From Bacillota bacterium (lineage in GTDB: Bacteria; Bacillota; UBA4882; UBA10575): a stretch of DNA of 64,000 nucleotides. The stretch spans positions 1 through 64,000 of the forward strand of contig JAAYGG010000040.1 of the NCBI GenBank assembly GCA_012727895.1, given 5' to 3'. Made by a program: the position numbers and the translations under genes. The notes beneath the pieces were generated by a model, which saw only the letters and a program-made list of their open reading frames with translations, did no database searches and was not told where the DNA came from. This document shows, in pieces, positions 22,455 to 32,653 of this stretch (the first letter of the stretch is position 1; each line of letters starts with the position of its first letter).

Positions 22455-23000
22455 TCAGCTGTTCTTTGGCGGCTTGTAATAACGATCCCGTTCACTGTAG
22501 ATACACCCGCAATAAGGCTGGCGGTAAAGCCCGAGTTCCCGGGAGAGCTCCCGGCTCCTCCGGTACCCCGGGCGCAGGTCCTCGCCGTAGAAGTTTAACC
22601 CGTATTTCCGGGCCAGGTCCTCCCCGGTCCGGCAGATCCCCTCAATCTGCTGGTAAGGACTGATCAAAAGGGTGGTCCCAAACCATTTAAACCCCAACTC
22701 CTTGGCTTTGCGCGCCGTCTTTTCCAGCCGCATTGCATAGCAAAGCGGGCACCGTTCGTTCTCCTTCTCCACCACCATCCGGAGAAAACCGGAAAGGTCG
22801 TATTCTTCCTCAAGCAAAAGGGGGAGCCCTTTTATTTCCGCAAAATCCTCCAGGGTCTCTTTTCTCTTCTGCCACTCCCGGTAGGGGTGGATATTGGGGT
22901 TATAATAATACATCAGCGGGGCATAACCCGCAGCCGCCAGGTGTTCCGTGGTGTAGGTGGCGCATGGCCCGCAACAGGTATGCAGTAAAATATCTTTCAT
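22455..23000 (-). CDS. queH: Epoxyqueuosine reductase QueH
   Basis: Reduces epoxyqueuosine to queuosine in tRNA, replacing QueG in many anaerobes. 181 aa. The Cys pairs that hold the [4Fe-4S] cluster and metal are visible: HTCCGPC at 7-13, CPLCYAMR in the middle, and YCGCIYS near the C-terminus. The YYNPNIHPYREW block is typical. The ATG at 23000 follows AGGGG. It lies just before DUF2905 and after ruvB, probably in one long DNA-repair/tRNA operon. Confidence 0.92.
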   Translation of the reverse strand: MKDILLHTCCGPCATYTTEHLAAAGYAPLMYYYNPNIHPYREWQKRKETLEDFAEIKGLPLLLEEEYDLSGFLRMVVEKENERCPLCYAMRLEKTARKAKELGFKWFGTTLLISPYQQIEGICRTGEDLARKYGLNFYGEDLRPGYRRSRELSRELGLYRQPYCGCIYSERDRYYKPPKNS

Positions 23001-23116
23001 TGATAATCTACCCCTAAAATTCCTGCTCCCGTTCACTCGACAGTTCCTTTTTTCCTCGCAACAAAACTCCTCCGTTCCTTCGTTAACGGGTAAATTGATT
23101 ACCCGGTTATGCCCGG

Positions 23117-24163
23117 CTAAAACTGGAGGCGGCCTTGGAGGTCCCCGGTGGCCTCCGGCTCCAAGCCAAGGTGTTCCCGGCCCAACCTGGTGATTACCCT
23201 TCCCCTGGGGGTCCGCTGCAAGAACCCGATCTGCAGGAGGTAGGGTTCGTAAACATCCTCAATCGTCTCCACTGCCTCCTGGGTCGCCGCGGCCAGGGTT
23301 TCCACACCCACGGGGCCGCCGTCGAACTTCCCGGCGATGGTCTCAAGGAGCAGCCGGTCCACCCGGTCCAGGCCCATGGGATCGACCTCCAGAAGGTCCA
23401 GGCCCTTACGGGCGATGGCGGCGGTAATCACCCCTTCCCCTTTGACCTGGGCATAATCCCGCACCCTTTTCAAAAGCCGGTTGGCAATCCGCGGCGTCCC
23501 CCGGGCCCTTGCCGCCAATTCCCGGGCGCCCTCCTTTTCAATGGGGATCGCCAGGATGGAGGCGGCCCGGCAAATGATCTCTTGCAGTTCCTCACAGGTG
23601 TAATACTCCAGGCGGTTGATGATGCCAAAGCGGTCCCTCAGCGGCGCAGAAAGCGCGCCTGCCCTGGTGGTGGCCCCCACCAGGGTAAAGCGGGGAAGAT
23701 CAATCCGGACCGAACGGGCGCTCGGCCCCTTCCCGATTATTATATCCAGGGCAAACTCCTCCATTGCCGGGTAAAGGATCTCCTCCACCGTTCTGTTCAA
23801 ACGATGAACTTCATCGATAAATAAGACCGCATGGGGTTCCAGGTTGGTGAGGATTGCCGCCAGATCGCCGGGGCGCTCAATCACCGGCCCGGAAGTAACA
23901 TAGATCTGCACTCCCAGTTCGGCGGCGATGATATGGGCCAGGGTGGTTTTGCCCAACCCCGGCGGGCCGTAAAGGAGGACATGGTCCAAGGCCTCCCGCC
24001 GCTTGCGGGCGGCCTCGATAAAGATGGCCAGGTTCTCTTTGACCCGGGTCTGCCCGATATATTCCGTCAAGCTCCGCGGGCGCAGAGCAACATCAATTTC
24101 CGAATCCTCTTCCCGTCTTTGCGGGCTGACAAAACGGGGTTCATCCATATGCGGTTCAACCAT
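23117..24163 (-). CDS. ruvB: Holliday junction branch migration ATPase RuvB
   Basis: 348 aa AAA+ motor that drives branch migration with RuvA. Walker [13 protein letters not shown] near residue 60, Walker B FIDEVHRL near 110, sensor 1 GATTRAG, arginine finger PLRDRFGI, and a C-terminal winged helix ending [11 protein letters not shown]. It follows ruvA by 31 bp. The ATG at 24163 is preferred over the adjacent TTG at 24166; GAGAGGAA lies upstream of both. Confidence 0.97.
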
Positions 24164-27740: not shown

Positions 27741-29558
27741 TTAGAAATAATAGGGTGGATACGGGACAACAACCTGTACCTGGAGTTGCTGGGATTCGGT
27801 GATTTTCACGAACAACTCCAGAACAACCTTTTGCCGTAGCCGGTTCGAATCAAGAAGTTCAAAGAGAATCGTCTCGATCTGCGGTTTAATGCGCACATCC
27901 ATTCCAGGGACGGCGCCGGGGATATCCACAAAAGTGCTGAAAGGCACATCTTCACTCTGGTGGATCTCCAGGTTGTTTTGGTTGATGAAGAAGATCTGTT
28001 TATGAACAATCCCCTGGATGATGATTTTATCTTCAATTACTTCTGCCATTAGTTGCTCCACTTTTGCCACAATCTCACGGATCTTCACCGCCGGCTGCGT
28101 AAGGGCAAGGGTACTCTCCAGCAACAACTGGGAGGTCTGTTCACCGACGACCGTATCAAGCTTTAGCAGAGCGCCCGGTCCAAGCGCCACATTCATCTGT
28201 ACACTCTCGGTGACCTTCACAAAGAACTCGACGACAATCTTCTGGAGAACGGTATTCTCATCCAAGAGCTCAAAATGGATAAATTCAATGGTCGGCTCGG
28301 TTATTACGTCCATCCCCGGTTCAGCGCCGGGAATATCCACAAAAGTACTGAATTCGACATCTTCCGCCTGGTGAAACTCCACATTGTCCTTGCCGATAAA
28401 GAAGATCTGCTTGTGCAACACCCCCTGGAGGACAATCTTATCCTCCAGAACCTCCACGCTGAGATCGGCGATCTCCGCCGTAATATCATCGATCTTAATT
28501 GCCGGGGTCTCCAAGGTAACCAGGTTTTCCAAGAGTTCTTGCTTGGTGGCTTCGCCAATTACCTGATCCAGGCGTACCAGGGGACCGTTTCCTTCCCTGA
28601 TATTAATCTGCGTGGGTTCGGTGACTTTCACAAAGAACTCGGTAACGACTTTTTGATGGAGTAAAGTCGGGGTAAGCAAGTTAAAGAGGATTGTTTCCAC
28701 TGTCGGGTGGATCTGGATATTCATCCCCGGCTCGGCGCCGAAAACATCCACAAAAGTGCTGAAAGGCGCCTCTTCTGTTTGGTGGTGGACGATATTGTCC
28801 TCACCGACAAAGAAGATCTGTTTGTGCAGCAATCCCTGGATAATAACCTTATCCGGAATCAATTCAGTGGTCAGATCGCGAATCTCCGCAGTGATATTCC
28901 TGATCTTAAGGGCGGGTTGGGAAAGGGTGATGTTGCTCTCAATCAATAGTTGTTTTGTCGCTTCACCAATGACCACCTCGGCCCGCACCAAAGGGTCCAT
29001 TAAGGTCTCTCCTCCTTTCGGTAATTCTTGAACTCCGGTGTCTCCGGCGCCACCGGTTTCTCTTCTTTCTTCAGCCGCCGGGTATTGCGGCAATAGCCCG
29101 CAGGCGCTTTCCGGAGGATCGTGTTCTTCGCGCCTGTACGCGCAGCACTCTGTAACAGAATCTGTTGGCGCGCATTTACGCCCATTCATCGCTTTTTCCT
29201 CTTCCGCAATCGCCGGGCTTTCCTGCACTGGATCTTCCGTACCTGCAAAATCCGGGTTTATTGCCTCTGAGATTCTTTCATCTGATTTTTCTTCACCGCA
29301 GATTTTTTCATCCGGCTCTTTTTCATCCAGGCTATTGTCATCCGGTTTTTCTTCATCTACGCCATTTTCATCCATGGTTTTTTCATTCAAGCTTTCTTCA
29401 TCTGAACTCTTTTCATCCGAGCTTTTTCCATCTGAACACTTTCCATCTGAACTTTTTCCATCTATCCTTCTTTCATCCGCGCTTTTTCGCTCCGGTTTTT
29501 CCTGGTCGTCATTGGTCTTCTCCGGAAAAGAAAGCTCAGCGCCGGGCTCCCTGGCCAC
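27741..29558 (-). CDS. Multi-SPOCS (DUF3794) spore-coat-type protein with three domains and an acidic repeat N-terminus
   Basis: 605 aa from a GTG at 29558. Residues about 190-600 contain three SPOCS domains, each with the order VIGEATKQ-LL...KIRNITAEI, DKVIIQG-LHKQIFFVG, then PFSTFVDV-GAEPGM. SPOCS domains occur in SipL and other spore envelope proteins and mediate coat assembly. Residues 25-94 are fourteen pentapeptide repeats (K-S-S-D-E-like); residues 95-186 are an acidic linker with several Cys. Start choice is open: an ATG at 29000 (MDPLVRAEV) has AAAGGAGG upstream and would drop the whole N-terminus. The same frame also continues above 29558 to 29801 with a membrane-segment-like stretch but no start codon. 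A partner gene with the same architecture lies immediately upstream. Confidence 0.8.
   Translation of the reverse strand: MAREPGAELSFPEKTNDDQEKPERKSADERRIDGKSSDGKCSDGKSSDEKSSDEESLNEKTMDENGVDEEKPDDNSLDEKEPDEKICGEEKSDERISEAINPDFAGTEDPVQESPAIAEEEKAMNGRKCAPTDSVTECCAYRREEHDPPESACGLLPQYPAAEERRETGGAGDTGVQELPKGGETLMDPLVRAEVVIGEATKQLLIESNITLSQPALKIRNITAEIRDLTTELIPDKVIIQGLLHKQIFFVGEDNIVHHQTEEAPFSTFVDVFGAEPGMNIQIHPTVETILFNLLTPTLLHQKVVTEFFVKVTEPTQINIREGNGPLVRLDQVIGEATKQELLENLVTLETPAIKIDDITAEIADLSVEVLEDKIVLQGVLHKQIFFIGKDNVEFHQAEDVEFSTFVDIPGAEPGMDVITEPTIEFIHFELLDENTVLQKIVVEFFVKVTESVQMNVALGPGALLKLDTVVGEQTSQLLLESTLALTQPAVKIREIVAKVEQLMAEVIEDKIIIQGIVHKQIFFINQNNLEIHQSEDVPFSTFVDIPGAVPGMDVRIKPQIETILFELLDSNRLRQKVVLELFVKITESQQLQVQVVVPYPPYYF
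29277..29486 (-). repeat. 15-bp in-frame tandem repeat in the 3-SPOCS gene (14 units)
   Basis: Degenerate units coding K-x-x-D-E/G (for example KSSDG, KCSDG, KSSDE, KTMDE, EKPDD). The register is kept over 70 codons with no stop. Divergence among units is moderate, so the array is not freshly expanded. Confidence 0.85.
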
Positions 29559-29849
29559 CGCCGGGGGATCCCTCCCGCCCGGGGCTGTACCTACCCGGAG
29601 GGGCGAGATCTTCCTCTTTCTTCTCCTTCTCCTTCTTAACCTGAGACCCCCGGGCGGGTAAAAAATCTTATCGTCCGGCTTGAGAGAAGAGGCTGTGATG
29701 ATCTGGGTGAGCCTTGTTTTATGAAGGCAGCATAACCAATAAACACTGAAGGCAATAAGGGCAAGGTAAAAAATTAACCCGATAATTCCTGTGGTTCCAA
29801 GTTATCCCCCCTTTCTCCCGCCGTCCAACGACCTTCGGATTCGCTACTA

Positions 29850-29877
29850 TAATATATGAATTGGTCATCGCTTGTGC
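29850..29877 (-). promoter_or_regulatory. Sigma-K-like promoter candidate of the 3-SPOCS gene
   Basis: On the minus strand GCACA, 14 bp, then CATATATTA, which fits the mother-cell sigma-K consensus (AC-type -35, CATAnnnTA -10). Its distance to the out-of-frame TTG at 29800 is about 50 bp. Confidence 0.4.
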
Positions 29878-29930: not shown

Positions 29931-32549
29931 TCAAAACGGTTCCGGTGCAAAAACCACATTGGTAACCACTTCCACAGGGACGGGTTCAGGAATGCCGTCA
30001 CCCACCACATCCAAAGGTACCACCGCTTTATCAACCCGGAGAATCCCCGGGCCGGAGACATCGGTCACTGCAAAGAATTCTTCCTCTACAATACCGGCCT
30101 CGGTAAGAACCGGCGCCCGGACCAAAATCCGTTCGGTGGTAATCCCCGGACCGGTTACCTCCGTAACCACATCGAACGGTTCGGGAGCTATCTCCTCCCC
30201 CTCCACCCGGACGCGGAGGACAATGAGCTGCCGTAAGAAGCGGCCGTCCTCTGACAGGGTGAAGGAGATATTCTCAATCTGTACACTCACACGGATCGGG
30301 GTATCCGGGGTCAAACCGGGGACGTTCACCAAAACCGAGAAGGGAACCTCTTCAGTAACCGCTTGCACCACATTCTTCTTGTTGACAAAGAAGACCTGCT
30401 TGTGAACGAACCCCTCCACCAGCACCTTTCCTTCGCTTATGATCCGGGCCCGGAGGTCAGTGATCTCCCCTCTTACCTCCCGGATCTTAATGGCTTTTTC
30501 CGGCAGTTCTACGACATTTTCCACGATAATCTGCTGCTCGCCGGTGACGGCGACGGGTTGGGGCACGACCCGGACCACCCGTACAGCGCGGACGGCTTCA
30601 GGAATGACTTCCTCCTTTTCTACGAGTAGCTGCCGGATCCCTTCCCCGATCACCTGTTCCAGCTTGAAGAGGGGACAATCGGTGGTCGCCAGGCGGGCCT
30701 GGATCGTTTCCGTCACTACCACCTTGGCCTGGAGGATCACTTTTTGCTGCAGGATCCGGTCATCATCCAAATGGAAAATTATCTGCTCGATCAGGATCTT
30801 CACATTGGCGTTTAAACCCGGCGCCGCGCCCGGGATATCAATAAAGAGTCCGAAAGGAACCTCTTCCATCTGGTGGCGTTCAATATTATCCCTGGTGATA
30901 AAGAAGATCTGTTTGTGCAAGATCCCTTGAATAATCACCTTATCCGGTATCACCTGGGCACTGACGTTTCGCACCTCGCCCACGATCTCCCGGACTTTGA
31001 TGGCCGGGCGCTCCAGTTCGATGACGGACTCTTTCAAGAGTTGTTCCTGGCCTTCGCCAATCACCTGTTCGACTTTGAAGAGGGGGCCGTCGCCCGTACG
31101 GACCCGCTCCTGAATCTTCTCTGTTACTTTGACAAAGACTTCGATGATCACTTTTTGCCGCAGTTCCACCGGGGAGACGAGTTCAAAAATGATCTTTTCA
31201 ATGACCGGGTGCACCTGCACATCCATGCCCGGTTCCGCCCCGGGGAGATCCAGAAACATACTGAATGGGACCTCTTCTTCCTGGTGGCGGGCGAGATTAT
31301 TCCGGTCGACAAAAAAGATCTGCTTGTGGATTATACCTTGGATAATTACTTTATCGGGAATGATCTCCACTTGGAGATCCCGCAGTTCTCCCCTGATTTC
31401 ATCAACTTTCTCCGCCGGCGGGTCAAGCTCCACTATCTCTTCGACCAGATGTTGTTTGCTGGCCTCGCCAACCACGGAAGGCAAGAGCAGTAACGGTCCT
31501 TCGTTTATCTCCAACCCCACCTGGACAAACTCAGTTACCTTAACAAAGATCTCCAGGATGATTTTTTGCAAGACCGACCGCCCGTCCGCGGCCAAACGGA
31601 AAAGGATCTTTTCAATGATTGGGTGCACCTGCACATTCATCCCGGGTTCCGCCCCGGGCACATCGATAAAAGTGCTAAAGGGGATATCTTCGGCAAAATG
31701 CCTGATTACACCGTCAACGCCAACGAAAAATACTTGTTTATGAATAACCCCCTGGATGATCACTTTATCGGGGATGATCTCCGCGGTAACATCCCTAATC
31801 TCGCCAGTGATATTCCGGATCTTCACCGCTGCCGCCGGCAACCGGGTAACCGGTATGGCCGGGGCGACCCGGGTTCTTGCTTCACCCACCTCTACCTGGG
31901 CGCCTTGAAAGGCCGTTGCCACCCCGGTCTCTGTTTCGACCTCTTCCACCTCTTCAACCTCATCAATCCCTTCAAAGCCGGGGGTTCCGACTTTAACCCT
32001 TACCAAATTGGGATCATACCCCGTGTGGGACTCTCCCGCCGTTTCCCCGCCCGTGCACGAATTCACCCTTACCTGTACCCTTGAGGGCATGACAATATTT
32101 CTTTCTTGTTCTACCTCTTTTTCATCTACCGGTTCCGCTGCAGCCACTTCCTGCTCTGCTTCAGTTGGCTCTGGCGGTTCCACTTGTTCTACTCCGGCCG
32201 TTGCCTGCTTTACCTCTTCTTCCTTGTTTGCCCCCGCTTTACCTTTTTCCGCCGTCTCCTGCCCGGTGCTTTGCTTTTTCCGGCTCTTCCGCGCCCGTGT
32301 GGTCTTTTTCTTTTTCTCTTTTTCCCCTGTCTCTGCCGCTGCCGCCGGTTTTTCCGTGGTTTCTGCCGGTTCTTCCGTGACTGCCGCCGGCTCTTCCATA
32401 GTTGCCGCCGGCTTTTCAGTGGTTGTCGCTGACTCTTCTGTGGCGGCGATCTCTTCCGGCCTTTCCTTCCCGTCCGCTATGGTTTTATCCTCAGCCCGCG
32501 GCCGGTTATCTTCCGGCCCACGCGCAGCATCCCTCTGATCAAACTCCAT
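29931..32549 (-). CDS. Multi-SPOCS (DUF3794) spore-coat-type protein with four domains
   Basis: 872 aa from the ATG at 32549. Residues 1-130 are low-complexity acidic and Lys-rich, including a 21-bp/7-aa tandem repeat (TTEKPAA, TMEEPAA, VTEEPAE) and a basic patch KTTRARKSRKKQS. Four SPOCS domains follow, each with PDKVIIQG-x-x-HKQ(I/V)FFV and PFS-x(3)D(V/I)PG; the fourth is divergent (SEGKVLVEGFVHKQVFFV). The C-terminal 90 residues carry two GPGI-containing repeats (VVTEVTGPGI, VTDVSGPGI). GGAGG lies upstream of both the TTG at 32552 and the ATG at 32549. No LysM or catalytic domain is present. By analogy with SipL a structural coat/morphogenetic role is likely. Confidence 0.86.
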   Translation of the reverse strand: MEFDQRDAARGPEDNRPRAEDKTIADGKERPEEIAATEESATTTEKPAATMEEPAAVTEEPAETTEKPAAAAETGEKEKKKKTTRARKSRKKQSTGQETAEKGKAGANKEEEVKQATAGVEQVEPPEPTEAEQEVAAAEPVDEKEVEQERNIVMPSRVQVRVNSCTGGETAGESHTGYDPNLVRVKVGTPGFEGIDEVEEVEEVETETGVATAFQGAQVEVGEARTRVAPAIPVTRLPAAAVKIRNITGEIRDVTAEIIPDKVIIQGVIHKQVFFVGVDGVIRHFAEDIPFSTFIDVPGAEPGMNVQVHPIIEKILFRLAADGRSVLQKIILEIFVKVTEFVQVGLEINEGPLLLLPSVVGEASKQHLVEEIVELDPPAEKVDEIRGELRDLQVEIIPDKVIIQGIIHKQIFFVDRNNLARHQEEEVPFSMFLDLPGAEPGMDVQVHPVIEKIIFELVSPVELRQKVIIEVFVKVTEKIQERVRTGDGPLFKVEQVIGEGQEQLLKESVIELERPAIKVREIVGEVRNVSAQVIPDKVIIQGILHKQIFFITRDNIERHQMEEVPFGLFIDIPGAAPGLNANVKILIEQIIFHLDDDRILQQKVILQAKVVVTETIQARLATTDCPLFKLEQVIGEGIRQLLVEKEEVIPEAVRAVRVVRVVPQPVAVTGEQQIIVENVVELPEKAIKIREVRGEITDLRARIISEGKVLVEGFVHKQVFFVNKKNVVQAVTEEVPFSVLVNVPGLTPDTPIRVSVQIENISFTLSEDGRFLRQLIVLRVRVEGEEIAPEPFDVVTEVTGPGITTERILVRAPVLTEAGIVEEEFFAVTDVSGPGILRVDKAVVPLDVVGDGIPEPVPVEVVTNVVFAPEPF
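32340..32444 (-). repeat. 21-bp in-frame tandem repeat in the 4-SPOCS gene
   Basis: Five heptapeptide units at residues 36-70, consensus T-T-E-(E/K)-P-A-A, continuing the coding frame without stops. Confidence 0.75.
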
Positions 32550-32653
32550 CAACGCACCCTCCTTTCTCCAGCCAGTTTCCGGCAGGCCTATGCCAAAACC
32601 TCAATAAACCGCCGGTCACCGCACCAAATCCGGATGGACATCCAGATCTGCTA

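Follow-up and report, generated by a model that had tools for sequence, protein, structure and literature searches.

A putative membrane-protein gene beside a SPOCS coat-type gene, conserved in one genus without an in-frame canonical start codon, is a candidate for recoding

Three described systems are close to the locus reported here. SipL, as in C. difficile, belongs to the SPOCS proteins (DUF3794, PF12673) and contains three DUF3794 domains (PMC6436350). In Firmicutes, the genes infC, cvfC1 and ccpN have non-canonical starts, in which a conserved weak in-frame AUU or AUA codon follows a strong Shine-Dalgarno site (PMC13009471). Programmed -1 frameshifting, as in dnaX and IS elements, together with so-called shifty stops, is the third. 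The locus lies in a stretch of 64,000 nucleotides from a Bacillota metagenome assembly, referred to below as the window, and combines a SPOCS gene with an upstream open frame that has no usual start codon.

The SPOCS gene proper occupies 27741-29000 on the minus strand and codes for a protein of 419 amino acids (MDPLVRAEVV...). It belongs to the SPOCS (SipL) family, PF12673 being found by Pfam in three stretches (E=5.2e-42, 142.4 bits against a curated cut-off of 23.6). Its ATG at 29000 follows the Shine-Dalgarno site AAAGGAGGAGAGACCTTA (29001-29018, minus strand), and nearly all relatives have a site of the GGAGG type ahead of it. In more distant relatives of the class, a stand-alone 3-SPOCS ORF of 416-419 codons begins ATGGACCC behind AAAGGAGGGA, and in several of them a stop codon abuts the SPOCS ATG on its 5' side; the window shares this ATG, behind AAAGGAGGAGAG. 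The SPOCS gene itself starts at ATG 29000 and not at GTG 29558. The first-pass annotation had named a clear start at 29558 or 29000, supported by N-terminal peptides, as refuting its reading; the comparison found the ATG at 29000 and its ribosome-binding site conserved in relatives. The same annotation had taken the segment above GTG 29558 for a hidden N-terminus of the 3-SPOCS gene. That assignment has to be changed: the predicted membrane segment belongs to a separate gene upstream, which shares the SPOCS frame only in some species, and is not simply the SPOCS N-terminus. Between the two lies a charged low-complexity linker (29001-29516, minus strand), rich in D/E/K/S and open in all three congeners, which stays in frame though its dN/dS is near 1. 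The upstream neighbour of the locus (29931-32552) carries four SPOCS domains and a long charged N-terminal region, and no LysM domain was found in it.

The region 27741-29801 on the minus strand is a single open frame of 686 codons, directly preceded by an in-frame TAA (29804-29802) 5' of codon 1 (29801). Codons 1-81 (29801-29559) encode a membrane segment and a basic cluster, reading LGTTGIIGLIFYLALIAFSVYWLCCLHKTRL and later RLRRRRRRKRK, and contain no ATG, GTG or TTG; the first such codon is GTG 29558. The frame scan agrees with the earlier description of 81 start-free codons with a transmembrane-like stretch and a basic cluster, apart from one residue misspelt in the cluster. Start-like codons make up 6.55% of the codons in long ORFs, so that the probability of finding none in 81 is about 0.4%, and a distance of at least 60 codons from the stop to the first start was seen in 7 of 139 ORFs of 200 or more codons; these statistics were drawn from the window and seven further stretches. 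By itself the absence of a start codon is only mildly unusual. It counts as significant because it is conserved and the frame is under selection in two congeners. Another long ORF of the window (22455-23258) has 74 codons from the upstream stop to its first start codon.

An ORF for a small membrane protein was found upstream of SPOCS in 22 species outside the genus, always with an ATG or GTG start, whereas no canonical in-frame start is present in any of the three known species of the genus. The window's ORF has the position, the promoter, the single membrane segment, the invariant W and the near-invariant H after the segment that characterise the gene across the class; this H is Q in L002 and L024. 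The membrane ORF runs in frame into SPOCS in nine of the 22 species and is out of frame with it, or stopped before it, in the other 13; in L028 (6154) its stop codon overlaps the SPOCS ATG as TAATG. Since the two genes are out of frame in some species, fusion is not essential. The comparison describes two predicted neighbouring genes that are repeatedly fused or separated within the family, and members such as L028, L007, L004 and L010 differ among themselves in whether the frames agree. The putative membrane protein accompanies the SPOCS coat-type gene throughout most of this class of spore formers; for three species further removed (L083, L084/L023, L085), a hydropathy scan recovered no membrane ORF. 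The protein had no Pfam match over the cut-off, and neither a paralogue or further copy within the genome nor an independent copy in viral contigs was found. Codons 63-88 weakly resemble the upstream SPOCS gene, but this resemblance was unsupported at the DNA level.

Upstream of the membrane frame lies a promoter-like element, GCACA-N14-CATATATTATA (29848-29877, minus strand), equally spaced in every class member matched by pattern, with 15 bases from GCAC to CATATATTATA. Its -10 element, CATAnnnTA, is presumably of the mother-cell sporulation sigma type, SigK/SigE-like. Across the class the spacing of the element is invariant and its sequence nearly so, beyond what promoters usually show; the congener L024 (5553-5763) has about 100 extra bases between promoter and ribosome-binding site. 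The Shine-Dalgarno site AAAGGGGGG (29806-29814, minus strand) is identical in three congeners, and AAAGGGGGC stands ahead of the ATG in several other family members.

The only canonical start codon conserved at this ribosome-binding site is TTG 29800-29798, five bases past GGGGGG (29811-29806). As annotated earlier, it sits one base off the membrane frame, and it opens a mini-frame (29774-29800, minus strand) that reads MEPQELSG and stops. The codon of the membrane frame at this place is CTT (29799-29801, minus strand), which shares two bases with the TTG. In an alignment to 22 relatives, their ATG or GTG start falls on CTT 29801, and the start and the invariant W stand nearly equally far apart throughout, with no gap against the GTG-start relatives and a difference of one residue at most against the rest. 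The closest in-register match to the genus start is the GTG-GGA or GTG-GGT type of more distant relatives. A profile built without the genus ranked the membrane ORF first of 1766 window ORFs, its positions 5-33 matching residues 5-33 of the ORF in register; in absolute terms the hit, with E=0.014, is a weak one. Because the relatives' start aligns on CTT 29801 and the profile matches in register, the one-base offset can be placed exactly at the start codon. The start region reads AAAGGGGGGATAACTTGGAACCACAGGRATTRTCGGGTTAAT in all three species of the genus, and the 5' region AAAGGGGGGATAACTTGGAACCACAGG is identical in their separate assemblies. By this comparison the offset is older than the split of the three species. 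A single-base indel had been suspected from the window alone; a one-base offset at the TTG is there, and a recent mutation is not, the offset predating the species split.

Selection on the membrane gene was assessed by NG86 in the three species. Over codons 1-95 (29517-29801, minus strand), which comprise the membrane segment (about codons 5-26), the invariant W, the basic cluster and RDPPAVxREPG, the dN/dS values were 0.21, 0.27 and 0.34. Minimum substitutions at the three codon positions were 14/14/39 (p=2.6e-5), and 42 amino-acid differences were counted against 62.2+/-4.9 when substitutions were shuffled, none of 5000 shufflings giving so low a number. Codons 1-60 gave 0.19-0.51 in the genus, as compared with 0.45-0.82 in related genera whose starts are ordinary; the linker (codons 95-267) gave 0.77-1.04 with the frame kept, and SPOCS 0.025-0.035. 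Relatives were also to be compared for a conserved frame, and the membrane frame is open, free of stops, in all three congeners. The first nine codons differ by two substitutions (GGA/GGG; ATC/GTC), each of which is silent or conservative when read in the membrane frame, while the TTG frame would make one of them a radical change (E to G); with three species and only these two substitutions, this test leans weakly towards a membrane-frame reading from the start. Since the constraint is as strong as in normal-start relatives, codons 1-95 are not relaxed and are very probably translated, and the substitution pattern indicates that selection on the membrane frame continued after the offset was fixed.

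On balance, we lean towards a class-wide sporulation membrane-protein gene whose start has become fixed one base off and whose product is nevertheless made, by initiation that the Shine-Dalgarno site places at C-TTG. Guided by the strong site, ribosomes would come to stand on the overlapping C-TTG, and some of them would either set the frame at CUU directly or slip by -1 within the eight codons before UAA. To our knowledge, CUU is not a near-cognate start codon. The slip could occur at the GGU before UAA, a G_GGU tetramer with the stop in the A site. No X_XXZ_ZZN heptamer or efficient Z_ZZN tetramer was found before the UAA of the mini-frame; only G_GGT lies next to TAA, and it is conserved in the three congeners. 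In E. coli, G_GG.N tetramers are among the motifs that are barely or not shift-prone (PMC4066793); according to work cited in PMC5009743, ribosomes can slip more readily when a stop codon occupies the A site. The outcome would be small amounts of a membrane-anchored protein, partly fused to SPOCS; the bulk of SPOCS would be made from its own ATG 29000. By the positive-inside rule the product is predicted to lie N-out, with its C-terminus in the mother-cell cytosol, and small amounts of membrane-anchored SPOCS beside soluble SPOCS would suit a coat anchor. A more specific version, in which initiation itself sets or corrects the frame, with the ribosome on UUG and the productive frame one base upstream, as a conserved recoding that limits the amount of anchor, is tentative and rather unlikely.

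A near-cognate AUU start at codon 6 (29786), or at codon 10 (29774) through termination-coupled restart or a hairpin, is a rather unlikely alternative to initiation at C-TTG. Both codons are near-cognate in all three species, codon 6 being conserved, and AUU and AUA starts occur in Firmicutes, reaching about 10-30% of AUG strength in S. aureus reporters (PMC13009471), but the S. aureus cases all had extended Shine-Dalgarno sites. In infC of this genome, too, a canonical start is missing near the ribosome-binding site. At codon 10, ATT/ATC overlaps the stop of the mini-frame as TAATY, and a small hairpin (GATAACTTG..CAGGRATTRTC, -4.3 kcal/mol in all three species) would bridge the Shine-Dalgarno site to it; the conservation of this hairpin, however, is judged from two substitutions, a start at codon 10 would truncate the membrane segment, and conservation of the N-terminal length begins with codon 1. 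From the Shine-Dalgarno site to codon 6 there are about 20 bases; codons 6 and 10 are the nearest candidates, and no near-cognate codon stands at normal spacing from the strong site. The first-pass annotation had offered programmed frameshifting or a rare ATT start: non-standard decoding is the favoured candidate, an AUU start at codon 6 or 10 being less likely, with the spacing just described. In the genus, infC (L088, L097, L098) lacks ATG, GTG or TTG near an AGGAGG site, and its start in this genome and in L097 is likely ATA or ATT (or CTG).

It is improbable that the membrane frame is a decaying relic whose start was lost in the ancestor of the genus, with only SPOCS made from ATG 29000. 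The missing canonical start, the separate start of SPOCS and the linker dN/dS near 1 would fit such decay, whereas selection on codons 1-95 after the offset is as strong as in normal-start relatives and not one stop has arisen in three species. We regard as very improbable a downstream start at GTG 29558 (codon 82) with the upstream segment as an untranslated leader: this GTG is conserved in the three species, but its Shine-Dalgarno spacing is poor (about 11 bases), and the protein-level selection and homology of codons 1-81 would be left unexplained. Sequencing or assembly error, also raised at first, is in practice excluded, for although every sequence comes from a metagenome assembly, separate assemblies of three different species carry the same bases. 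Transcriptional slippage at GGGGGG was ruled out, an in-frame TAA standing between the G run and the frame; ATG 29881, a start in an upstream frame, falls within the promoter and shows no conservation as coding sequence, and ATA 29805 is in the wrong frame (frame 3).

The membrane gene is a good candidate for recoding on these comparative grounds. Confirmation of its translation would make it a conserved bacterial gene that is expressed without an in-frame canonical start, with a choice of frame at or beside the start codon that gene finders would overlook. The comparison also uncovers a putative small membrane protein beside a SPOCS coat-type gene, repeatedly fused to it.

Compared with SipL, the SPOCS gene described here has the same three SPOCS domains and a promoter of mother-cell type. 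In SipL a C-terminal LysM domain mediates binding to SpoIVA, whereas no LysM was found here, Pfam giving SPOCS domains only; unlike in SipL, a membrane segment and a charged linker stand before the gene or are fused to it. The non-canonical starts of infC, cvfC1 and ccpN resemble the present one in that a strong Shine-Dalgarno site precedes a weak but conserved start, but theirs is an in-frame AUU or AUA, and here CUU occupies the start position in frame, with UUG one base off. With programmed -1 frameshifting and shifty stops the locus shares an upstream Shine-Dalgarno-like site, a downstream frame at -1 and an early stop in the 0 frame; in contrast to dnaX and the IS elements it has no efficient slippery motif, and the shift would fall within eight codons of initiation.
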